From positions 1 to 27,736 of IMG/VR virus record IMGVR_UViG_3300020194_000198: 27,736 bases of DNA, one strand, 5' to 3'. Positions within the stretch are counted from its first letter, which is position 1; the number at the start of each line of letters is the position of its first letter. Below, one piece after another: positions 6,523 to 27,736 of this stretch. The notes beneath the pieces were generated by a model. That model did not search any database, had not been told where the DNA came from, and saw nothing but the letters and a program-made list of their open reading frames with translations. The position numbers and the translations under genes are program-made. Origin of the DNA: a virus.

Positions 6523-7262
6523 TGGCAAGCACAGGTTATATAAGCGAACAGAATTATCAAATTGCTAGAGGCTTGATAAAAGGAGCTTCTTCAATACATA
6601 AGTTTGGTGCGGTTCCTGCTATGTCAATTAATACGACAGGTACTTGTTGGGATAAAAATGATACTTTATATCCTTGGTCAGCATTTTCAAGTGCGAGTGT
6701 ATTAACAGCACAGGCCGTTAATGCTAGTGATAACGGAAAGATTTTAACAGTTGAAGGTTTAGATAGTAATTACGAACCACAAACAGATACAATTACATTA
6801 TCAAGTAGTGGTACAGCAAGTACAACAAAACAATTTTTAAGAGTGTATAGAGGTTACATTTCAACAGGTACAAACAATGTTGGTGTAATTGATGTAAGAA
6901 TTGGCGCAACAACTGTATTGTATATTAATGTAGGTTTAGCACAAACTTTAATGATGATTTATACTGTACCCGCTGGTAAACAATTATTATTAACAAAAGG
7001 TGCTTGTACTTCACAGGCAAGTGCTGACGCTTCAGGTTTCTTTTATGTAAGATTTTTTGGTCAAACAGCATTTAGAATACAACACACATTTGAAGTTTCA
7101 GGTTCAGATGGTTATGAATATGATTTTACTGTACCATTTGCTGTACCAGAAAAATCAGATATAGATGTTAGAATACAAACAAGAAGTAATAACGGAAGAT
7201 ATACAGCCGCTTTTGATGGTGTGTTAGTAGATGTTCCACGAACAATGTACACAGGTAGTTAA
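6522..7262 (+). CDS. Virion structural protein (beta-rich)
   Basis: 246 residues, starting MASTGYISEQNYQIARGL. This opening and the Ser/Thr/Gly-rich beta-strand pattern are typical of abundant virion proteins in T4-like marine phages. There is no signal peptide and only one Trp-rich patch (CWDKNDTLYPWSAF). The rest alternates short strands and turns (TDTITLSSSGTASTT, GVIDVRIGATTVLYINV, IDVRIQTRSNNGRYTAAF). It starts at the stop of the previous gene and ends at the start of the next (TAATG both times), so it is in one operon with the enzyme-like genes. Whether it decorates the head or belongs to neck or tail cannot be told. Confidence 0.7.
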   Translation: MASTGYISEQNYQIARGLIKGASSIHKFGAVPAMSINTTGTCWDKNDTLYPWSAFSSASVLTAQAVNASDNGKILTVEGLDSNYEPQTDTITLSSSGTASTTKQFLRVYRGYISTGTNNVGVIDVRIGATTVLYINVGLAQTLMMIYTVPAGKQLLLTKGACTSQASADASGFFYVRFFGQTAFRIQHTFEVSGSDGYEYDFTVPFAVPEKSDIDVRIQTRSNNGRYTAAFDGVLVDVPRTMYTGS

Positions 7263-8479
7263 TGAATATTATTTTAATAGGCGGTCCAGGTTCAGGTAAA
7301 TCAACTTATGCTAAGTTTATTACCAAAGAGTTTGATATAGAACACATTTATCCTGGTGAACTATTAAGAAAGGCAAAGGCACAAGGCGGAGAAATGGCCA
7401 AAAGATTATCAGATTTAGGTAAAGGTGGTTTTGCTCCTAATGATATTGTCTTAAAACTTGTAAAAGACGCCGTAGCAAAGGCAGATAATGGTTTTGTATT
7501 TGATGGTTTTCCAAGATATATGCAACAAGTAAGAGATTTAGAAAGAGAAGGAATTAAAATAGATAAAGTGGTTTATTTAAATGTAAGTCCTGAAGAAGTT
7601 ATAAGAAGACTAACGGCTAGAGGTAGAGAAGATGATAAACCAGAAATTATTAAAAACAGAATTGCTTTATATAAAAAAGAAACTGGTCCTGTAGTTGAGT
7701 ATTACAGAAAAAAACCAGGTTTTATAGAAGTAAAAGCTGAAGGCGGTGAACCTGAAGAAATAGCAAATAGAATTATAAAACAACTAAAGGCAAAACCATT
7801 AAGAGAATTTAGAGAATATTTAAATGAAGGTGTTTACGATCCAGGTATTTTTAAGGCCTTCTTTTTAGCAGGTGGTCCTGGTTCTGGTAAAACATTTGTA
7901 ACAGCTTCTGCTTTTGGTGGTACAGGTTTAAAAGTAGTTAATTCGGATGCTGCCTTTGAAAGAGGTTTAAAACAGGCAAATTTATCTTTAAAAATGCCAG
8001 ATGAAGAAGAATACTTTAGAAATATTGTAAGAGCAAAAGCAAAAATGACAGCTTCTACAATGTTAAATACTTATATAGAGGGTAGATTAGGTTTAGTTAT
8101 TGACGCTACAGGTAGAGATTTAGACTTAGTACAAAGACAAGTAGGTATGTTAAGAAATATTGGTTATGATTGTTATATGGTATTTGTAAACACTAGTTTA
8201 GATGTGGCATTAGAAAGAAATAAAAAACGACCAAGATCAATACCAGAATACATTGTACAGAAAAGTTGGCAAGGTGTTCAGGCTAATATAGGTTCTTTTC
8301 AAAGAATTTTTAGTCCTAATAAAATGTTAGTTGTAGATAATAATAGAAGTGAACAAGAATTAGTAACTCAAACATTAAACACAGCGGCTAAATTTATTAG
8401 AAGTAGATTAAGAACCAAACCAGAAAACGGTATAGCATTAAGTTGGATAAGAAAAGAATTAGAGGCTAAAAAAAGATGA
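7262..8479 (+). CDS. Adenylate kinase fused to a second P-loop kinase domain
   Basis: 405 residues in two halves. Residues 1-177 are an adenylate kinase: P-loop GGPGSGKST at 7-15, the NMP-binding helix with GELLR, DGFPR at 81-85, and a short LID (TARGREDDKPEIIKNR) without the long zinc-type insertion. Residues ~195-405 are a separate P-loop kinase or zeta-toxin-like domain, with P-loop GGPGSGK at 204-210, a GLVIDATGRD strand and FVNTSLDVALERN. The joint (PLREFREYLNEG, about 179-190) resembles the N-terminal head-targeting peptides of neighbouring proteins, as if an adk-like gene were fused in front of a packaged kinase. Adenylate kinase would convert AMP and ATP to ADP; the second substrate is unknown. 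Confidence 0.85.
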   Translation: MNIILIGGPGSGKSTYAKFITKEFDIEHIYPGELLRKAKAQGGEMAKRLSDLGKGGFAPNDIVLKLVKDAVAKADNGFVFDGFPRYMQQVRDLEREGIKIDKVVYLNVSPEEVIRRLTARGREDDKPEIIKNRIALYKKETGPVVEYYRKKPGFIEVKAEGGEPEEIANRIIKQLKAKPLREFREYLNEGVYDPGIFKAFFLAGGPGSGKTFVTASAFGGTGLKVVNSDAAFERGLKQANLSLKMPDEEEYFRNIVRAKAKMTASTMLNTYIEGRLGLVIDATGRDLDLVQRQVGMLRNIGYDCYMVFVNTSLDVALERNKKRPRSIPEYIVQKSWQGVQANIGSFQRIFSPNKMLVVDNNRSEQELVTQTLNTAAKFIRSRLRTKPENGIALSWIRKELEAKKR

Positions 8480-19736: not shown

Positions 19737-20204
19737 ATGTTAAGTTTTAGATTATTTTTTATTGGACTACTCATCAGCGCCGTCATAGGCGCTGGTGCTT
19801 ATGTTATGAAGTTACAAAGAGATAACATTATTCTAAAAGAAAACGCAGTTAAATTAGAATCTGCCATATCAGAACAGAAACAAGTTATTGAAAATCAAAA
19901 GAAAGACTTTGCTGAAATATTAGAAGCAAATAAAAAGATAAATGAATTAGTCAATAATCTCAAAAAAGACTTAGATGATTTAGATAAAAGATTTAATAAG
20001 AAAGAAAGAGATATTGGTAAACTGGCCATTGAAAGAACAAAGGTCATAGAAAGAATTATAAACAAAGGTAGTGAAAACGCTAAAAGATGTATTGAAATCG
20101 CTAGTGGTTCACCATTAACGGAAGAAGAAAAGAATGCTACAAAGAAGTCAGAAATCAATCCTGAATGTCCTAGTATTGCTAATCCTAAGTATATTCCTTA
20201 CTAA
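19737..20204 (+). CDS. Inner-membrane spanin (Rz-like)
   Basis: 155 residues. It has an N-terminal transmembrane helix (FFIGLLISAVIGAGAYVM, about 7-24) and then a long coiled coil through about residue 110 (AISEQKQVIENQKKDFAEIL). A C-terminal part carries two Cys (RCIEIASG, ECPSI). This is the layout of an i-spanin, which joins an outer-membrane lipoprotein across the periplasm in the last lysis step. The next gene starts inside its 3' end in another frame and is a lipoprotein, which is typical of Rz/Rz1 pairs. Confidence 0.75.
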   Translation: MLSFRLFFIGLLISAVIGAGAYVMKLQRDNIILKENAVKLESAISEQKQVIENQKKDFAEILEANKKINELVNNLKKDLDDLDKRFNKKERDIGKLAIERTKVIERIINKGSENAKRCIEIASGSPLTEEEKNATKKSEINPECPSIANPKYIPY

Positions 20205-20517
20205 CTGCTCAGGTGTTAAGAAGTTAAGTATATTTAAAGAAGAAGTCAAAAGACAGGAACTAAATTTAGAGAAACCTACACCTCTACAATTAGAACAAAT
20301 TAAGTGGATTATTATTACATCTGAAAACGCTGATGAAGTATTTAAAAAGATGGAAGAACAAGGCCTTGATCCTGTCTTATTTGGCCTTACAGATAATGAC
20401 TATCAATTGATAGCAAAAAACTTTGCTCAAATAAGAAATCAATTAAAAATTACAAACGATATACTTGACAAGTATAAAGAATACTACGAAGGAGATAATG
20501 ATGGCGAAACTAGGTGA
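20134..20517 (+). CDS. Outer-membrane spanin-like lipoprotein (Rz1-like)
   Basis: 127 residues, beginning 71 bases inside the i-spanin gene in a different frame. The N-terminus is a lipoprotein signal, VLVLLILSIFLTNC, with the lipid-bearing Cys at 25; Asn at -1 is unusual but allowed in some lipoproteins. After a short linker comes WIIITSENADEVFKKMEEQG with LFGLTDNDYQLIAKNFAQIR and a helix ending LDKYKEYYEGD. That second part resembles a small phage protein family found alone in other marine phages, so the gene may be a fusion of an o-spanin signal and that domain. It is much longer than lambda Rz1. Confidence 0.7.
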   Translation: MLQRSQKSILNVLVLLILSIFLTNCSGVKKLSIFKEEVKRQELNLEKPTPLQLEQIKWIIITSENADEVFKKMEEQGLDPVLFGLTDNDYQLIAKNFAQIRNQLKITNDILDKYKEYYEGDNDGETR

Positions 20518-20920
20518 TAAAACTGACTTTAGTTATAGAGTAAAAAGAGTTACAAAAGTTGTAGATGGAGATACAATAGATGTTATATTAGATATGGGGT
20601 TTGACATTTTGTTTGCTCAAAGAGTTAGACTATTTGGTATAGACACACCAGAAAGTAGAACAAGAGATAAAGTAGAAAAAATTTATGGTTTAAAGTCTAA
20701 AAAGTTTTTACAAGAAAAATTAAAAAAAGCAAAAAAGATTACAATTAAAACATACAAAAATTCAGAAACAGGTAAGTTTGGTAGAATACTTGGAGATGTA
20801 TGGTGTGACGGAAAATCTGTTAATTCAGAAATGGTTAAAGTAGGTCACGCTGTTGCTTACTATGGTCAAAACAAAAAACTTGTTGAAGCAGCTCATTTAA
20901 GAAATAGAAAAAGAGTATAA
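20501..20920 (+). CDS. Thermonuclease (SNase) family nuclease
   Basis: 139 residues from ATG 20501; ATG 20498 is in frame and nearly as good. GGAG at 20491-20494 is spaced better for 20501. The open frame further upstream (20465) overlaps the lipoprotein and is not used. It shows the full SNase active-site set: VDGDT (D22, D24), RVRLFGIDTPE (R43, D48, E51) and GKFGRIL (R95). The expected activity is calcium-dependent cleavage of DNA and RNA. There is no signal peptide, so it would act in the cytoplasm or be packaged. T4-like marine phages often carry one near lysis or structural genes; host DNA breakdown is a likely role. Confidence 0.85.
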   Translation: MAKLGDKTDFSYRVKRVTKVVDGDTIDVILDMGFDILFAQRVRLFGIDTPESRTRDKVEKIYGLKSKKFLQEKLKKAKKITIKTYKNSETGKFGRILGDVWCDGKSVNSEMVKVGHAVAYYGQNKKLVEAAHLRNRKRV

Positions 20921-21195
20921 TGTTTTTTGATATACTAACACAATTTGGATTACCAGTTGCGGCCGCTGTCACAATGGGTGTATTCATTTATATTATTTTA
21001 AAATATATTTTAGCAGGTGTAGTTGGTTCAGTCAAAGGTTTACACGGTATTATTATGGGTTTAGAAAATAGAATTGAAACAATGAACAATGATTTAATAC
21101 ACATTGATACTTTAATTTCACACTCATTACACTTAAAACCAGATTTAGATAGAATAGCAAGAGCTGACGGTAAAAAAGACGCTAGACGAGATTAA
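20920..21195 (+). CDS. Small membrane protein A of a tandem pair, 91 aa
   Basis: N-terminal transmembrane helix (LPVAAAVTMGVFIYIILKYI), then an amphipathic helix with IMGLENRIETMNNDLIHIDT, and a charged end (ADGKKDARRD). The next gene encodes a protein with the same plan, so the two are tandem paralogs. Start and stop overlap neighbours by one base. Similar pairs occur in T4-like cyanophages by memory. Possible roles are a membrane-remodelling or lysis accessory, or a superinfection factor; none is proven. Confidence 0.65.
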   Translation: MFFDILTQFGLPVAAAVTMGVFIYIILKYILAGVVGSVKGLHGIIMGLENRIETMNNDLIHIDTLISHSLHLKPDLDRIARADGKKDARRD

Positions 21196-21446
21196 TGACT
21201 GTATTAGAAATATTAAATCAATATGGATTTGCTACCTTGGCCGCTATTGGTATGGGCTGGTTTATATTTTTTATCTATACCTATATCACACAAGAAGTTA
21301 CAAGTAAACTAGGTGAAGCAAATAAAGCCTTAATTGCTCTTTTAGACAAGATAAGAAGATTAGATAATGATTTGATTAGAATTAAATCTAAATTGAACAC
21401 TATTTTGACATTAAGAGAAGAACAAGATAAGAAAAACAAAGACTAA
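21195..21446 (+). CDS. Small membrane protein B of a tandem pair, 83 aa
   Basis: Same layout as the preceding gene: LNQYGFATLAAIGMGWFIFF transmembrane start, then LLDKIRRLDNDLIRIKSKLN. The shared core is QxG...AAxxMGxFI and xxIxxLNNDLIxI-like. The two proteins differ most at the C-termini. Heteromer formation is plausible since both copies were kept side by side. It ends just before the late promoter of the curli-like island. Confidence 0.65.
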   Translation: MTVLEILNQYGFATLAAIGMGWFIFFIYTYITQEVTSKLGEANKALIALLDKIRRLDNDLIRIKSKLNTILTLREEQDKKNKD

Positions 21447-21450
21447 TTCT

Positions 21451-21458
21451 TATAAATA
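21451..21458 (+). promoter_or_regulatory. T4-type late promoter before csgF
   Basis: TATAAATA sits in the same 17-base context (21446-21462) as the promoter at 15036. By the T4 rule the start would fall at or within one to two bases of 21464, the A of the csgF ATG. No ribosome site exists between promoter and ATG. The mRNA from this promoter would therefore be leaderless or nearly so. Confidence 0.75.
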
Positions 21459-21463
21459 GTAGT

Positions 21464-21922
21464 ATGAAAACACTTATAAAATATAGTGTTTTCTTTGGAC
21501 TTTTACTATTATCCACATCATTACAGTCAAGTGAATTGACACAAGAATTTAAGAACCCATCCTTTAGTGGAAATGGTTACTCAAATCACGTGTTATCAAT
21601 ACAACAACTTGAACACCAAAGAGAGCAAAAGATAAAAGAAGACAAAGAAGCCGCTGAAAGGCAGGCTAAACGTGACGAAGACAATAAGACAATCAATCGT
21701 TTTATTGCTAACGTTGAAAGTAGAATTTACGCTAACATATCAAAACAATTAGTTGACAATATGTTTAGTGATACTGGACAAACATCTGGTACGGCTGAGA
21801 TAGAGGGTGCTACAATTGTTTGGAATAAAGATAGTGACTTAGGTACGATTGCTATTACCATAACGGAAGCTGACGGCACCATAACAACATTAACAGTACC
21901 GATTGGAGATTTCGGTTTCTAA
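21464..21922 (+). CDS. csgF: CsgF-like curli assembly protein
   Basis: 152 residues. A Sec signal at 1-20 (MKTLIKYSVFFGLLLLSTSL) is followed by the CsgF mark LTQEFKNPSFSGNGY, with NPSFSGN at 31-37. Then comes a helical part (QLEHQREQKIKEDKEAAERQ) with RFIANVESRIYANISKQLVD, and a C-terminal sheet (GTIAITITEADGTITTLTVP). In Escherichia coli, CsgF caps the CsgG pore and couples curlin export to nucleation at the cell surface. The N-terminal segment inserts in the pore; its sequence type is kept here. The start is fixed by the signal peptide. The next gene, csgG, overlaps its stop by one base. Confidence 0.85.
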   Translation: MKTLIKYSVFFGLLLLSTSLQSSELTQEFKNPSFSGNGYSNHVLSIQQLEHQREQKIKEDKEAAERQAKRDEDNKTINRFIANVESRIYANISKQLVDNMFSDTGQTSGTAEIEGATIVWNKDSDLGTIAITITEADGTITTLTVPIGDFGF

Positions 21923-22719
21923 TGTTAAAATTTTTAACGGTGGCGTTAATAGCTGTTTTCTTAAACGGTTGTGCTACTGTACCAAAATATGAAGACCCTA
22001 AACTGTCTATCTCTCCTTTACAAAAGAAGTTTAAAGAGATAAAACCTTTAGATGGTCCACAGATTACAATTGCTGTCTATTCATTTTCAGATAAGACAGG
22101 TCAAAGAAAACCAAGTCAAAAGTTTTCTCAATTAAGTTCAGCAGTTACACAAGGTGCTGAAGTTTGGGTGATACAGGCATTACAAGAAGTTGGTAATAGT
22201 AGTTGGTTTAAAGTAGTAGAAAGAATTGGATTAGATAATCTAATCAAAGAACGACAGTTAATTCGTTCTACCAGAGAACAATACGAAGAAGAAAAAAATA
22301 AAAGATTAAAACCTTTATTGTTTGCTGGTTTAATTGTTGAGGGTGCTGTAGTTGGTTATGATTCAAATGTAGCAACTGGCGGTGCTGGTGCTAGATATTT
22401 GGGAATAGGATTACAAACTCAATATAGAGTAGATAATGTAACTGTTTCAATGAGAGTAGTAAGTGTATCCACAGGAGAAGTATTACTTTCAGTAGCAGTT
22501 GAAAAACAAATTTTATCAGTTTCTCAAGGCGGTGATGTGTTTAAGTTTTTAGATATGGGTACAAGAGCAGTAGAGATTGAATCAGGAACAACGGTAAATG
22601 AACCTGTTAATTATGCTGTAAGAGCAGCAATAGAACAGGCCGTAGTCGAAATGATATTAAAAGGTGAAGCAAAAAACCTTTGGAAGTTTAAACAAGGAGA
22701 TAAAGTAAATGTTAAATAA
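21922..22719 (+). CDS. csgG: CsgG-like curli secretion channel lipoprotein
   Basis: 265 residues, near the E. coli length of about 277. Residues 1-17 are a lipoprotein signal ending LNGC (Cys17). The CsgG core follows: ITIAVYSFSDKTGQ, then AVTQGAEVWVIQALQ, SSWFKVVERIGLDNLIKERQ and RSTREQYEEE. After that comes a transmembrane-hairpin part with LLFAGLIVEGAVVGYDSNVA and a second one (TVSMRVVSVSTGEVLLSVAV). CsgG forms the nine-subunit outer-membrane pore that exports unfolded curlins. The constriction loop region (KPSQKFSQL) keeps an aromatic residue. Clear family match; subunit number and cargo are inferred. Confidence 0.9.
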   Translation: MLKFLTVALIAVFLNGCATVPKYEDPKLSISPLQKKFKEIKPLDGPQITIAVYSFSDKTGQRKPSQKFSQLSSAVTQGAEVWVIQALQEVGNSSWFKVVERIGLDNLIKERQLIRSTREQYEEEKNKRLKPLLFAGLIVEGAVVGYDSNVATGGAGARYLGIGLQTQYRVDNVTVSMRVVSVSTGEVLLSVAVEKQILSVSQGGDVFKFLDMGTRAVEIESGTTVNEPVNYAVRAAIEQAVVEMILKGEAKNLWKFKQGDKVNVK

Positions 22720-23422
22720 ACTAACAATTATATTATTTACATTATTGTTTGGTGTTAACGTTTATGCTAATGATATTTATATAGACCAAGTTGGTGATAG
22801 CTTAGATTTAGATATAGTGCAAGATGGTCAAAACAACAAAATTGGTACATCTTTAGTTGACGCTGATTTTGATGGTGATAATATGACGTTTAGTATTACT
22901 CAAACAGGTAACACTAACGAAATCACAGCAGACATACAAGGAAATACATACACTGGTACTTGGGCGTTTACAGGTAACTCAAACACAGTTGACTTACTTT
23001 GTGATAGTTCAGCAAACGGAAATTGTGAAACTGTAACTTTAAATATCACAACAACAGGTGATAGTAACGCTTACACAATTAACATTGGTGAAACTGGTGA
23101 TGCTGAAAATGCTACAATTGCTTTTACAGTAACAGGTGATAATTCAGTTATCAACACAGATGTAGATGGTACAAATTCAGACATTACTGTAACAATGAAT
23201 AACTCCGCTTCATTAGCAACAACAAGTGCTAATTCAGATGAGGGTAACCAACTAGACTTAACTCAAACTGGAAACGGTGATAGTTTAGGTCATAGTATTA
23301 CTTTAAACATCACAGGCGGTGGTAGTACATACACAGTAACACAATCTGGTATCTATGATAATAAAGTTGACGCTACATTTAATGGTGATAGCCAAGACGT
23401 AGATATTACACAATCTGATTAA
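22709..23422 (+). CDS. Secreted curlin-repeat protein (CsgA/CsgB-like)
   Basis: 237 residues, AAGGAG nine bases before ATG 22709, overlapping csgG by 11 bases. The signal peptide (MLNKLTIILFTLLFGVNVYA) is followed by curlin-type strand repeats: IYIDQVGDSLDLDIVQDG, then FSITQTGNTNEITADIQGN, LTQTGNGDSLGHSITLNI and YTVTQSGIYDNKVDA. The Q-x-G-x-x-N core is the amyloid-forming unit of CsgA and CsgB, but the spacing here is looser and Asp-rich. One Cys pair is present in the middle (LLCDSS, NCETV). This is the likely export cargo of the pore. Fibre formation is an inference. Confidence 0.8.
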   Translation: MLNKLTIILFTLLFGVNVYANDIYIDQVGDSLDLDIVQDGQNNKIGTSLVDADFDGDNMTFSITQTGNTNEITADIQGNTYTGTWAFTGNSNTVDLLCDSSANGNCETVTLNITTTGDSNAYTINIGETGDAENATIAFTVTGDNSVINTDVDGTNSDITVTMNNSASLATTSANSDEGNQLDLTQTGNGDSLGHSITLNITGGGSTYTVTQSGIYDNKVDATFNGDSQDVDITQSD

Positions 23423-23430
23423 CGATAAAA

Positions 23431-23523
23431 ATGGACTTTGGAACAATAAACTTATTATTAATTATAGGGATATTAGTATATGCGAATATTGAGTTTTATA
23501 ATTTTATTGATAATAACTTCTAA
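23431..23523 (+). CDS. Tiny membrane peptide, 30 aa (uncertain)
   Basis: ATG 23431 begins MDFGTINLLLIIGILVYANI, one hydrophobic helix. It overlaps the FecR gene start by 44 bases. No strong ribosome site is seen before it (AACGATAAAA). It may be a leader peptide that couples translation of the next gene, or chance. Confidence 0.25.
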   Translation: MDFGTINLLLIIGILVYANIEFYNFIDNNF

Positions 23524-24580
23524 CACTGCTTTTGCCAATATTGGTAAAGTAAGTGAACATAAAGGTTCAGGCCTTATCAAAAGGACAACTGGCGATAAGG
23601 TTGAAACCAATTTAGAAACTGATGTGTTTTCAATGGACGAAGTTTCTACTGGACAAGGTAGAACAGGTATTACGTTTGTTGATGATACTAAAGTTGAATT
23701 GACTGAACACTCCAAATTAGTCATTGATGAATTTGTTTACGACCCCAATACAAACACAGGTGCTTTAAGTTTAAAAGCAAGTTTAGGAAGTGTTCGTTAT
23801 GCGAGTGGTCAAATAGCAAAGAACAGTAAGCAGAATGTAAAAATATCCACACCAACTGCCACAATTGCTGTTAGAGGTACAGACTTTGCTATGATTATAG
23901 ATGAGTTAGGTGGTTCTACAATCTTATTGTTACCAAGTTGTGATACAACAGGACTATGTTATGTAGGAGAAATTGAAGTTATATCAGACGCAGGCCAAGT
24001 GATTATGAATCAGGCCTTTCAAGCTACAAGAGTAGAGGCGCCTGAAAGTAAACCATTTAAACCTATCTTGGTTGATGTAAATGAAAGTATGATTTCTAAT
24101 CTTCTCATTTTATCTCCACCTAAAAATTTAAATACTGAAGAAAATGCTAATGAAAGAAAAGCAGTTGCTGATGTTTTAGATATAGACTTTTTAGAAATAG
24201 ATATTTTAAATGAAGATTTACTATCAACAAAAGATGATGATAACTTTGAAGAATTAGATGTTGATTATTTGGCACAAGACTTTTTATCTGATGTATTAGA
24301 CGCTATCAATAAAGTATTAGCAGAAAGTTTTTTAAGTCAGTTGACAGATGTATTTGTTAAGAAGAAACAAAAGACAGGACAAGATACAGAAACAGGTATT
24401 ATTATAATTGACAATGGAACATTTTGGGAGTTTAGACGAGAAGACACTAACAATTTTGTTAGATTACGATTAAGTAAATCAAGTGAGTATATTATCAATT
24501 TAACACAAGGTGATTTTGTAACAAGAGATTACATAATAGGAGATGGTAGTTTAAACAATATAGACATCTATCAAAAATAA
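23480..24580 (+). CDS. Secreted FecR-domain protein
   Basis: 366 residues. A Sec signal, MRILSFIILLIITSNTAFA, is followed by a FecR domain at about 22-165: GLIKRTTGDKVETNLET, STGQGRTGITFVDDTKVELT, then LGSVRYASGQ and the hallmark ISTPTATIAVRGTDFAM. Residues ~215-310 are acidic and helical. The C-terminal ~60 residues are a beta-rich extra part (FWEFRREDTNNFVRLRLS). There is no transmembrane segment after the signal, so it is periplasmic or exported, unlike the classical FecR anti-sigma factors. In bacteria FecR-domain proteins are often beside CHASE2 cyclases, and the same pair occurs here. The partner or ligand is unknown. Confidence 0.82.
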   Translation: MRILSFIILLIITSNTAFANIGKVSEHKGSGLIKRTTGDKVETNLETDVFSMDEVSTGQGRTGITFVDDTKVELTEHSKLVIDEFVYDPNTNTGALSLKASLGSVRYASGQIAKNSKQNVKISTPTATIAVRGTDFAMIIDELGGSTILLLPSCDTTGLCYVGEIEVISDAGQVIMNQAFQATRVEAPESKPFKPILVDVNESMISNLLILSPPKNLNTEENANERKAVADVLDIDFLEIDILNEDLLSTKDDDNFEELDVDYLAQDFLSDVLDAINKVLAESFLSQLTDVFVKKKQKTGQDTETGIIIIDNGTFWEFRREDTNNFVRLRLSKSSEYIINLTQGDFVTRDYIIGDGSLNNIDIYQK

Positions 24581-24581
24581 T

Positions 24582-25874
24582 ATGTTTTATAAAATTTTAA
24601 AAAAGTTTGTTATCTATTTGTTTATCTGGATGGTATTCTTTTCTATAGTAGATAAAGTAAAAGCAGATTTATATTACGACACTTACGCTGGTACAGGTGC
24701 CACGCCAAGTTTTCCAGGTAATGGTGGTAGTTTAACATATCCCACAAAATTAAGTTCAGGTACAATATCAAGTATAGATTACAATTGGGGAAGTGGTTAT
24801 GTATTAGACTCTGGTAGAAACGAAAGGGTTATTGTACATATGTATGGTTACATCACCATACCAGACACAGGTTCACAGGACATACAGTTCTATCTATATG
24901 CTGATGATGGTGTGTATATGAAATTAGATGATACAGTTGTCATTAACGATTGGCAAGAGCAAGGTGCTGGTACTTGGAACTATGTTTCAACAGACCAAAC
25001 ACTCACAGGTGGACAAACTTATTATATTGATATGTGGTGGTATGAAAACGGTGGAGGTGCCGCCGTTAAGTTATATTGGGACCAAACAGGTTCAGTTGCG
25101 ATTGTTCCTGCTTCAACATATTCTTTAACAGAACCAACACCTACTTCAGCTGCTACTTCAACACAAACAAGTTTAAGAACAACAACAAGAAATATTACCA
25201 ATTCAGGTAATGCTATTTACATTGACCAAGCTGGAACTAATTTAGATTTAGATGTAGTACAAGACGGTGACGATAATTTAATTGCTGGTACAAGTACAAC
25301 ATCAAGTACAATAACAGACGCTAACATAAGTGGTGATTACAATACAGTAAATCTATCACAAAAGAGTGATAACAATGTTTTACTATTTGGTGTAAATGGT
25401 GACCATAATGATTTAACGGTATCACAAGGCGACAATGTAAATGACACAGGTGGTCATAGAGCAATTGTAGATGTAACAGGTAATTATAATAGTACATCAT
25501 TGACACAATACGACACAGGTTTTGGTTCAGGTCAATTCGCTGACATAAATATTTCTGGTAATGATAATACAATTACATCAACACAAAGAGAAACCGACAA
25601 AATGTTATTCATAGATGTCAACGGTTCTGATAATACTATAACAACTGACCAAAAAGATTCAGGTCAACATTTTTTAGATATTACTGTAGGTTCAAATCAA
25701 ACTGTAAGTGTAACTCAACAAGGTACAGGTGACCACGCTGCTACTATTGATATGGGTGGTTATTCAGCTGGACTTTCACTAGACCAAAATTCATCAACTG
25801 ACCAAAATTATGTATTAGAACAAACTTGTGCTAATGTATCTGGTTGTGGTACAACAAGCGTAACTCAAAATTAA
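24582..25874 (+). CDS. PA14 domain-curlin repeat fusion protein (secreted)
   Basis: 430 residues. Signal-type N-terminus with a long hydrophobic part (IYLFIWMVFFSIVDKVKA). Residues ~30-180 are a PA14 domain, a beta-sandwich often binding sugars or host surfaces: YADDGVYMKLDDTVVINDW at 106-124, then GGQTYYIDMWWYENGGGAA and VKLYWDQTG. A Ser/Thr linker (~182-205) leads to curlin-type repeats at ~207-430, starting IYIDQAGTNLDLDVVQDG, nearly the same as the start of the other curlin-like protein. C-terminal Cys pair (EQTCANVSGCG). This would put an adhesin head on a curli-like strand. Fusion of these two domains is unusual to my knowledge. Confidence 0.8.
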   Translation: MFYKILKKFVIYLFIWMVFFSIVDKVKADLYYDTYAGTGATPSFPGNGGSLTYPTKLSSGTISSIDYNWGSGYVLDSGRNERVIVHMYGYITIPDTGSQDIQFYLYADDGVYMKLDDTVVINDWQEQGAGTWNYVSTDQTLTGGQTYYIDMWWYENGGGAAVKLYWDQTGSVAIVPASTYSLTEPTPTSAATSTQTSLRTTTRNITNSGNAIYIDQAGTNLDLDVVQDGDDNLIAGTSTTSSTITDANISGDYNTVNLSQKSDNNVLLFGVNGDHNDLTVSQGDNVNDTGGHRAIVDVTGNYNSTSLTQYDTGFGSGQFADINISGNDNTITSTQRETDKMLFIDVNGSDNTITTDQKDSGQHFLDITVGSNQTVSVTQQGTGDHAATIDMGGYSAGLSLDQNSSTDQNYVLEQTCANVSGCGTTSVTQN

Positions 25875-27736
25875 TGAAGAAAATATTAACACATTGGACA
25901 ATAGCATTTGTAACATTATTTGTTATTACATTTATAGGTTTAAAAGACCCACAAGTTAAAGAGATATTAAGACTAAAAGGTTTTGATTTATTATTACAAT
26001 CAGAACCAAAAGAAATTTCACAAGACATACACGTTGTAAGTATAGATGAAAAGGCCATAGAGAAGTATGGACAATGGCCTTGGAAAAGAGATGTACTTGC
26101 TGATGTAGTAAATCAATTAAGAGAAAAAGGTGCTGGTATTATAGTCATACCTATACTGTTTTCAGAATATGATAGACTAGGTGGTGATGAAGATTTTATT
26201 AATACAATCTATCAAAATGGTGTAGTTATAGCACAAACAGGAACAAATCAAATTAATAAGAATGCTGTACCAAGAGGTGTTGCTAAAATAGGTGACCCAC
26301 TACCTTGGTTATTTGAATGGGGAGGAATGTTAGGTCCTGTTAAAGAGTTTGGTGAATACGCTGATGGTGTGGGTGTGACAAACACAGCACCTGAAGTAGA
26401 TGGTGTTGTAAGAAGAATACCATTGTTAATGAGAATAGGTGATGAGATATACCCAGCAATGGCAATAGAAGTAATAAGAGTTGCTACAGGCGCACCTAGT
26501 TATCAAGTTAAAACAGGTGAAGGTGGTATTATCGCTATGAGAGTACCTGGTTTTGATACAATAGAAACAGACGCTAATGCTCGTATCTGGTTAAGATGGA
26601 ACAAAGAATATGTAACTACATCTATTGCTGATTTAGAAACAACTGAAGTTAAATTTAATAATAAAACAGTTATTATAGGAATGAATGCTGAAGGACTTGG
26701 TGGAATAATTGCGACACCAGTTGGAGAAAGATATGCTTACGAGTTAACTGCTTCAACACTATCAACTGTATTAGATGGTAAGAATATTACAAGAGTTGAT
26801 ATAAGTTTTATATCTGAATTAGGAGTATCATTTATATTAGGTCTTGCGTTAATTCTTATTACAAGATTTATGCCTTATTGGGTGATAGGTTTAAAACTAT
26901 TATCTTGGTATATAATTGCTGTTTATTTAAGTCATTATTTCTTTACAAAACATTTAATGCTTGTAGATGTAAGTTGGATTATTATAACAATTACAATTGT
27001 AGGATTTCATAGTGTCTTTAATAGATTTATTTTAGAGTTTAAATTAAAACAACAAATACGAAAACAGTTTGAGAAGTATTTGGATCCAAGACAAGTTGCT
27101 ATACTTGTAAAGAATCCTGAAAAGTTAAAACTTGGTGGTGATAGAAAAGAAATGTCTTTCTTGTTTATGGACATTGTAGGCTTTACTCCTATTTCTGAAT
27201 ACTATAAAAACAAAGATGATCCTGAAGGACTAGTTGCTGTAATCAATGATTATCTAAATCGTATGAGTCAAATTGTTTTAAGAAATGGTGGTACGATTGA
27301 CAAGTATATGGGTGATTGTATTATGGCATTTTGGAACGCACCATTAGATTGTCCTAATCACGCCGAGATGGCTGTAAAGACAGGTATAGAATGTGCTGAA
27401 GAAACTGAAAAGTTAAAAAAAGAATTTAGGGAGAAAGGTCTTCCTGATATTAATATAGGTTCAGGTGTTAACACAGGAACTTGTATTGTCGGTAATATGG
27501 GTAGTGAAAACCGATTAGATTATTCTGTTGTAGGTGACGCTGTAAACTTGGCAGCTAGACTTGAGGCTGCTACAAGAAATTATAGAGATGAAAATGGAAA
27601 GGTTACACCTTTGATTTATTCTTCCTATACAAAAGAGCAACTGAAAAATATTAAGTCAATTGAGTTAGATAAAATTAAGGTTAAGGGTAAAGATGAGTTA
27701 GTAACCATTTATAAACCAGTAACAAACTTAATGGAG
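25874..27736 (+). CDS. CHASE2-domain class III adenylate/guanylate cyclase (right end outside window)
   Basis: 621 codons are open to the window edge with no stop. One transmembrane helix (~7-23), an extracytoplasmic CHASE2 domain (about 30-310, with YGQWPWKRDVLADVV and AGIIVIPILFSEYDRLGG), three more helices (~312-400), then a cyclase domain from about 425. Metal ligands are D433 (LFMDIVGFT) and D481 (DKYMGDCIMAFWNAP); K477 fits the substrate-specifying position; N558 and R562 lie in GDAVNLAARLEA. Thus the main catalytic residues are kept in one chain, as in homodimeric bacterial cyclases. Lys suggests ATP over GTP, but the second specificity position is Ser. It overlaps the PA14-curlin stop by one base. 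Confidence 0.88.
   Translation, partial: MKKILTHWTIAFVTLFVITFIGLKDPQVKEILRLKGFDLLLQSEPKEISQDIHVVSIDEKAIEKYGQWPWKRDVLADVVNQLREKGAGIIVIPILFSEYDRLGGDEDFINTIYQNGVVIAQTGTNQINKNAVPRGVAKIGDPLPWLFEWGGMLGPVKEFGEYADGVGVTNTAPEVDGVVRRIPLLMRIGDEIYPAMAIEVIRVATGAPSYQVKTGEGGIIAMRVPGFDTIETDANARIWLRWNKEYVTTSIADLETTEVKFNNKTVIIGMNAEGLGGIIATPVGERYAYELTASTLSTVLDGKNITRVDISFISELGVSFILGLALILITRFMPYWVIGLKLLSWYIIAVYLSHYFFTKHLMLVDVSWIIITITIVGFHSVFNRFILEFKLKQQIRKQFEKYLDPRQVAILVKNPEKLKLGGDRKEMSFLFMDIVGFTPISEYYKNKDDPEGLVAVINDYLNRMSQIVLRNGGTIDKYMGDCIMAFWNAPLDCPNHAEMAVKTGIECAEETEKLKKEFREKGLPDINIGSGVNTGTCIVGNMGSENRLDYSVVGDAVNLAARLEAATRNYRDENGKVTPLIYSSYTKEQLKNIKSIELDKIKVKGKDELVTIYKPVTNLME

Follow-up and report, generated by a model that had tools for sequence, protein, structure and literature searches.

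A late phage operon combining a curli-type module with a putative lectin-headed curlin, a curlin-tailed FecR protein, and a CHASE2 cyclase

The stretch of DNA analysed here (the window) comprises 27,736 bases of the IMG/VR virus record IMGVR_UViG_3300020194_000198, from a marine phage, and the curli module that it carries truly belongs to a kind already known in phages of ocean bacteria. Eight genes on the same strand run from position 20920 to the window end: tmA, tmB, csgF, csgG, cur1, fecR, cur2, and a gene for a CHASE2 cyclase (Table 1). The operon starts 5' of the range given for it in an earlier note on this DNA, and includes the small genes tmA and tmB (20920–21446). Gene identities, domain architecture, linkage, the late promoter, and conserved motifs are established directly. 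The interpretation given most weight, with moderate confidence, is that the operon specifies a lectin-bearing curli fibre, made late in infection and coupled to a FecR–CHASE2 sensor arm. Under this interpretation, the curlins would be exported and would form fibres, the head of the second curlin would bind sugars, and the FecR protein would contact curlin and take part in sensing.

Table 1. Features of the curli operon in the window (aa, amino acids; TM, transmembrane; nt, nucleotides)
Feature	Position	Strand	Description
tmA	20920..21195	+	91 aa, single-TM, phrog_18771; D-x-R-x-D end
tmB	21195..21446	+	83 aa, single-TM; tmA paralogue, same PHROG
T4-type late promoter TATAAATA	21451..21458	+	13 nt 5' of csgF ATG
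csgF	21464..21922	+	152 aa; signal peptide, then FKNPSFSG
csgG	21922..22719	+	265 aa; predicted outer-membrane lipoprotein pore
cur1	22709..23422	+	237 aa; predicted secreted, curlin-like
FecR-domain protein	23480..24580	+	366 aa; signal peptide, FecR domain, C-terminal curlin-like tail
cur2	24582..25874	+	430 aa; PA14 lectin-like head (about aa 28–185) and curlin solenoid
CHASE2 transmembrane class III cyclase	25874..27736	+	incomplete: crosses window end

The gene identities that the earlier note had proposed for the late operon are supported by Pfam, with matches to CsgF (E-value 1.2e-15), CsgG (2.8e-56), FecR (1.1e-9), PA14 (4e-10), Curlin_rpt (6.3e-8, in three stretches of cur2), CHASE2 (1e-41), and the cyclase family Guanylate_cyc (1.4e-17). 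The window thus carries three components of a curli system, namely a CsgG pore lipoprotein, a CsgF with the conserved N-terminal stretch, and a curlin-repeat subunit. The FKNPSFSG stretch that follows the CsgF signal peptide resembles the start of mature E. coli CsgF. Its F..P.F core is kept in 116 of 121 CsgF proteins, and the stricter F.NP.F.G in 71 of the 121; the sequence match of the window protein to CsgF itself in the PDB reaches an E-value of only 0.41. CsgG, CsgF, and curlin-repeat subunits are common to the window and to E. coli curli. Unlike the E. coli system, however, the window lacks CsgE, adds the FecR protein, the CHASE2 cyclase, and tmA/tmB, and has larger curlins, one of them headed. 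CsgC and CsgD did not turn up in the Pfam scans of these genes, which did not include a search by name.

Modules of this kind have been described before. Pelagimyophages carry CsgF, CsgG, a curli-associated protein, and two hypothetical proteins (PMC7029224), and a set of CsgF, CsgG, two CsgA/B, FecR, adenylate cyclase, and ‘HK’ is reported from podoviral and myoviral pelagiphages (PMC9599517, published in 2022). The latter study infers an alphaproteobacterial origin for the module and notes that alphaproteobacterial curli modules also lack CsgE. Consequently, the suggestion that the set with its signalling partners might be new had already been overtaken by publication. The features that the accessible text of these two studies does not describe are the PA14 head, the curlin-like FecR tail, and front genes that are not kinases; ‘PA14’ does not occur in the main text of PMC9599517. 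No description of a PA14–curlin fusion or of a curlin-tailed FecR protein was found in the open-licence PMC literature, and one may exist elsewhere. The lectin-type head, the FecR tail, and the two tm companion genes thus appear to be undescribed. In MW574966, the record belonging to PMC9599517, no gene is annotated csg within 45 kb of its 59.8 kb, and the record is not among the phage-collection matches to CsgG.

The module is not absent from relatives of the window, as gene-order comparison with related phages makes clear. The cultured phage HTVC008M has the same set and order (csgF–csgG–curlin–FecR–second curlin–cyclase) with two small genes in front, and its relative of the window PA14–curlin gene matches at 41%. 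The order is the same in Melnitz, a phage of OM43, in whose record one gene product is annotated with a FecR domain and two with curlin repeats; the second curlin of Melnitz has no PA14 match, whereas cur2 of the window has a PA14 head. Elsewhere, the window carries T4-like genes (Pfam: a RecA-family recombinase, a DnaB-type helicase, and DUF6267), and among the matches listed for the helicase, those to Melnitz (66.5%) and HTVC008M (64.1%) are the best. The earlier note had raised the danger that host DNA was misassembled with phage DNA. Nothing in favour of such an artefact was found, and the chance of it is negligible: a second contig (L002) is 99.89% identical to the window across 11,155 bases, with 12 mismatches, and extends beyond the cyclase into ribonucleotide reductase genes, while HTVC008M shows the same order in a complete genome.

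Composition of the module is highly constant. A viral scan with twelve CsgG proteins returned at least 600 stretches with at least 594 csgG relatives; modules of the curli type are thus frequent among the phage contigs sampled. In the best 80 loci, counted where the flank allows, csgF is present in 77/77, cur1 in 66/66, FecR in 51/51, cur2 in 33/38, and the cyclase in 30/30. These csgG-seeded loci share some contigs with a second set seeded with tmA (L027 and L187 are one such case); of identical sequences only one was counted, and other overlaps were kept. In the phage collection, one of the CsgG matches (41%) is to OR851715.1, a record of 1.5 kb under the name Salmonella phage S.Kent 1-2-1.

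The late promoter that the earlier note had recognised in front of csgF holds up. The placement of TATAAATA across loci is the telling evidence, because the count in the window alone (four, against a shuffle mean of 6.3) shows no excess over chance. Among related loci, the motif stands 8–60 nt ahead of an in-frame ATG in 61 of 125 csgF genes, and at exactly 13 nt, a spacing picked out after inspection, in 41 of the 125. The same interval contains it for 46/235 tm genes, 4/209 curlin genes, 1/84 cyclase genes, and neither csgG (0/124) nor FecR (0/112) genes; the control value is 34 of 1119 other open reading frames (ORFs) of at least 120 aa. Given the geometry of T4 late promoters, transcripts with this spacing would start at or beside the csgF AUG, and the csgF mRNA is likely to be leaderless.

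Late transcription also accords with the proposal made for Melnitz, where the module is called incomplete, that CsgG and CsgF form a gated outer-membrane pore that times lysis (PMC9004378). In the window, an overlapping i-spanin/o-spanin pair (phrog_739 and phrog_812, at 19737–20517) and then a nuclease gene lie directly 5' of the tm pair and the module, and tmA and tmB are small single-TM proteins. Spanin homologues accompany 7/105 and 10/65 mapped loci (tallies of spanins, of tm strand, and of tm length count loci, not distinct phages). However, in most mapped loci, whose flanks differ, no spanin homologue was found, and the annotations of HTVC008M and Melnitz place none next to the module. 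A holin role for tmA and tmB was rejected, being suggested by layout only, with no Pfam holin family among their matches. Two curlins, a FecR protein, and a cyclase would moreover be superfluous for a lysis pore, which is an unlikely explanation of the module.

The second curlin has a modular build. The body of the window cur2 matches the profiles of the solved curlins 8c50 (3.5e-13) and, weakly, 8enq (0.0066), while solved relatives of its head include a PA14-domain protein (1.3e-15), RsgI3 (6.6e-14), and a Lap adhesin domain (E-value 0.01). The matched Lap chain is presumably the Marinobacter Lap protein, the PA14 domain of which contains a D-cis-D motif and binds sugars in a Ca2+-dependent manner (PMC6650083). 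A DDG motif occurs in all 13 PA14-headed rows of the cur2 alignment (A6) and in none of its three other rows. Family match and D–D motif together place cur2 in the PA14 family and make its head a putative sugar-binding, lectin-type domain. Family, motif, and presence in a probable adhesive protein are as in RTX adhesins and yeast PA14 adhesins (PMC6650083), whereas the window domain is joined to a curlin solenoid and is phage-borne. The first curlin, cur1, aligns with the curlin part of cur2 (29%; tblastn 1.8e-15, run with neither masking nor composition correction), and its relatives in HTVC008M and Melnitz are annotated as curlin-associated.

Other heads occur in the same position. Six further loci have a different cur2 head, approximately 200 residues long, for which Pfam offers nothing convincing (a single weak match, to ThuA, at 0.023). 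It is modelled as an alpha/beta domain (mean pLDDT 62), with domains of IFT52, ThuA, OST48, and GH42 nearest to it (VIA-align Z about 10–12) and no Foldseek match below 0.001; it may tentatively be called GIFT/ThuA/GH42-like. Complete distinct cur2 proteins from csgG-seeded loci (n = 45) comprise 6 with a PA14 head, 6 with a GIFT-like head, and 33 with neither, and those from tm-seeded loci (n = 28) comprise 4, 7, and 17, respectively, the split cur2 of one locus (L090) being counted in two head classes. Unlike heads can sit on like bodies, as a comparison of L024 and L091 illustrates. The cur2 proteins of L246 and L247 have yet other N-terminal regions, so further head types probably exist.

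The exchange of heads bears on the idea that the fibre coat or the pore hides receptors from rival phages. Superinfection exclusion of this kind has been put forward for the module (PMC9599517) and is compatible with surface fibres. Expression from a late promoter would nevertheless miss much of the period in which exclusion is useful, and exchangeable heads suggest outward binding instead; exclusion is regarded as rather improbable.

Apart from its periplasmic FecR domain, the FecR protein matches no Pfam domain at E-values up to 1. Its structural model starts with a 15-residue, signal-peptide-like helix that is followed by the FecR domain. A role as an iron-dependent anti-sigma regulator is unsupported, as no N-terminal anti-sigma domain before a TM helix was found. 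At its other end, the protein has a curlin-like tail. A terminal pattern (hydrophobic-x-hydrophobic/small-x-Q, no more than three residues from the end) occurs in 72 of 72 distinct complete viral FecR proteins and in 2 of 512 control ORFs of at least 150 aa. The pattern was chosen after reading the tails, and a stricter one fitted 51/76. In held-out FecR proteins it was found in 26/28 (control 4/337), and the two misses are an apparently split gene (L219) and a protein with residues beyond the Q (L246). Profile alignment (hhalign) of the last 50 residues pairs the FecR tails with those of cur1 at an E-value of 5.3e-5 (probability 67); for reference, cur1 and cur2 tails pair at 7.1e-6 (probability 84). 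Eight control profiles against cur1 (the tails of CsgF, CsgG, and the cyclase, the middle of CsgF, and four internal FecR blocks) did no better than 0.086, and the best of 100 column shuffles, at 0.0031, fell short of 5.3e-5. The structural model places six strands at residues 307–365 (block pLDDT 83–90).

A curlin-tailed FecR protein need not be a sensor. The main rival to the sensor arm holds that it anchors or nucleates the fibre, in the role of CsgB, and that the cyclase has a separate function. The curlin-like tail is in keeping with this, as are the failure to identify a separate CsgB and a middling match (Z 7.6; rmsd 2.1 over 74 residues) of FecR residues 18–113 to 5ix9, a domain that anchors an adhesin to the surface. 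The match of residues 50–209 to the PupR signalling domain is stronger, however (Z 15.3), and the FecR and cyclase genes occur together in 19/19 viral loci with full flanks and in three bacterial loci. An anchor or nucleator is possible and is held to be the less likely of the two roles.

The proposed partner of this protein is, from its sequence, a CHASE2 class III adenylate cyclase with intact catalytic motifs (FMDIVGF and DYSVVGDAVNLAARL); the L002 copy is complete, at 651 aa. Proteins with CHASE2 domains have been linked to envelope signals elsewhere. In S. meliloti, an outer-membrane protein relays a signal to which CHASE2 cyclases respond (PMC13001267), and in Burkholderia a FecR protein and a CHASE2 kinase are encoded together in a biofilm operon (PMC5192318).

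Together, these components suggest how the module might work. The infected cell would gain, from a late phage operon, a type VIII (curli) secretion system that dispenses with CsgE. CsgG and CsgF would form the outer-membrane pore through which both curlins leave, and a glycan-binding type of head on cur2, here PA14, would make the fibre a lectin-bearing adhesive. In the periplasm, the curlin-like tail of FecR would touch the curlins or the pore, and the FecR domain would report to the CHASE2 domain of the membrane cyclase, with tmA and tmB as closely linked membrane partners. The most likely benefit is adhesion: infected cells, or virions freed at lysis, would stick to new hosts or to glycan-coated particles. 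The earlier suggestion that the infected cell, at a late stage, makes a surface structure and senses it therefore survives in part. The late promoter, lectin-type head, curlin-like FecR tail, and CHASE2 sensor fit it, whereas no clumping was seen in Melnitz infections (PMC9004378), although Melnitz is the phage whose second curlin has no PA14 match.

That absence of clumping is one of several observations that weigh against a lectin-bearing fibre with a sensor arm. As for the fibre, cur1 scarcely resembles Curlin_rpt (E-value 0.14, under the cut-off), and CsgE, the lack of which the earlier note had correctly reported, is found in 0/13 records. No separate CsgB was identified, and the roles of the two curlins and the curlin-tailed FecR protein are not separable by sequence. 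Since neither head is present in 33/45 and 17/28 of the cur2 sets, lectin binding is not a universal function. As for the sensor, the FecR tail has no fold match (matched rows span residues 19–209), and its pairing with cur2 tails is weak (4.6e-4, probability 33). In 20 of 68 complete phage CHASE2 cyclases, Ser replaces the transition-state Asn, and these enzymes may be altered or dead. There also seems to be little to receive cyclic AMP (cAMP). A cyclic nucleotide-binding (cNMP-binding) domain was found in 11 of 100 Pelagibacter-group genomes, other receptors not being sought, and in none of 12 phage records, some of which are possibly fragments.

The same 100 genomes, which are the genus group of G004 and may not represent the host of the window, contained no class III cyclase, other cyclase classes not being sought. 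A completeness of at least 80 was specified for them, and no completeness values were returned. CsgG occurs in one of the 100, on a short contig of G004 itself (L108) that is nested in the phage clade. An 870-aa protein with a cNMP-binding domain is present in 10 of the 100, and two have a second, weak match.

If the sensor arm works, its message might be meant for the phage alone. In such a phage-private channel from envelope to cytoplasm, the lectin-bearing amyloid would be exported, FecR would sense its passage or attachment, and the cyclase, with tmA and tmB, would make a cAMP signal, or drain ATP, for the use of the phage. This extension is speculative and judged rather unlikely; were it true, contact with particles or new hosts could, for example, set the time at which the phage lyses a host without most of the cAMP machinery.

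The opposite direction of traffic has also been suggested (PMC7029224, PMC9599517), with the pore importing nutrients or cofactors. In favour are the channel nature of CsgG and the failure to find a CsgE gate, yet import would leave CsgF, two curlins, and a curlin-tailed FecR protein unexplained, and its likelihood is very low. With respect to the lectin-bearing fibre and its sensor arm, the present results turn the use of the module into testable points: sugar binding by the exchangeable heads, contact between the FecR tail and curlin, and the role of a phage cyclase in hosts that seldom have a cNMP-binding domain.

The two small genes in front of csgF belong to one PHROG, a family of 81–159 aa with one hydrophobic stretch. 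The D-x-R-x-D end of tmA is invariant in 18 rows of its alignment (A2), and tmA and tmB have other invariant residues too. From gene order, the ‘HK, sometimes two’ of PMC9599517 probably corresponds to tmA/tmB. No kinase family, including HisKA and HATPase_c, is among the matches of 36 tmA/tmB members at E-values up to 0.1, and a kinase role thus has no domain support; if the label means tmA/tmB, this argues against ‘histidine kinase’.

The tm genes are linked to the curli module even where they are inverted. Among 19 loci whose flanks are long at both ends, 16 contain the pair (it is missing in L048, L083, and L087), and csgF/csgG are present in 66 of 80 tmA-seeded loci. Of the other 14, 11 end 0–1,131 bases past the tm pair and two (L244 and L251) hold the cyclase. 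The idea of a tm family independent of curli was rejected on these grounds (13/14). A possible exception is L240, which starts at the tm pair and continues for 9.7 kb downstream without csg genes. Of the 121 mapped loci containing both, 17 have the tm genes on the strand opposite to csgG, and the tm genes are convergent with the csg genes in several (L229, L230, L241, L245, L246, L248, and L249). Six records of the phage collection, all from Pelagibacter and Methylophilales phages, contain tmA relatives, and these six are also the ones with cur2 relatives.

Operons with the same core are also found in bacteria. Among the best 80 genome-contig loci, two near-identical loci from Caulobacteraceae metagenome-assembled genomes (MAGs; L109 and L110) and one from Hyphomonas TMED17 (L113) carry csgF–csgG–curlin(s)–FecR–CHASE2 cyclase. 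Their flanking genes, tested at L109 and L113, are ordinary bacterial genes. These alphaproteobacterial operons share the core with the window module but have neither the tm pair nor a PA14 match, both of which the window has; tm genes occur in only two of the 80 loci (L112 and L115). The Caulobacteraceae FecR homologues end in a like strand, whereas the Hyphomonas homologue does not. In a CsgG tree of 69 of the 71 chosen rows (L112 and L115 were left out), the three bacterial CsgG proteins are sister to 33 phage-type CsgG proteins, with support of 100/99 for the joint branch and 89/87 for the phage group, and 33 other bacterial CsgG proteins fall apart from both.

The bacterial operon appears to be rare, because full-length FecR is confined to the two genomes behind rows of the query alignment: G001 alone among 249 genomes of its order, and G003 alone among 385 genomes of its class (1/105 in its family). 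The remaining matches, in 26/249 and 11/385 genomes, cover the N-terminal part only. Nonetheless, these operons qualify the claim in print that bacterial curli operons lack FecR and cyclase, and as the bacterial operon is likely a sister, the same sensor arm could be studied there.

Four further contigs with phage-type csg genes have been binned into MAGs titled Pirellulales (L107), Pelagibacter (L108), Flavobacteriales (L112), and Sphingobacteriales (L115). L107 and L108 nest in the phage CsgG clade, L115 is a T4-like contig (gp44 lid, clamp loader), and L112 is a 4-kb piece judged by its phage layout only. Such contigs could mislead claims that these bacteria have curli. Elsewhere in the window, positions 62–598 encode an MT-A70 family methyltransferase, and positions 7262–8479 encode an adenylate kinase joined to a second P-loop kinase or zeta-toxin-like domain.

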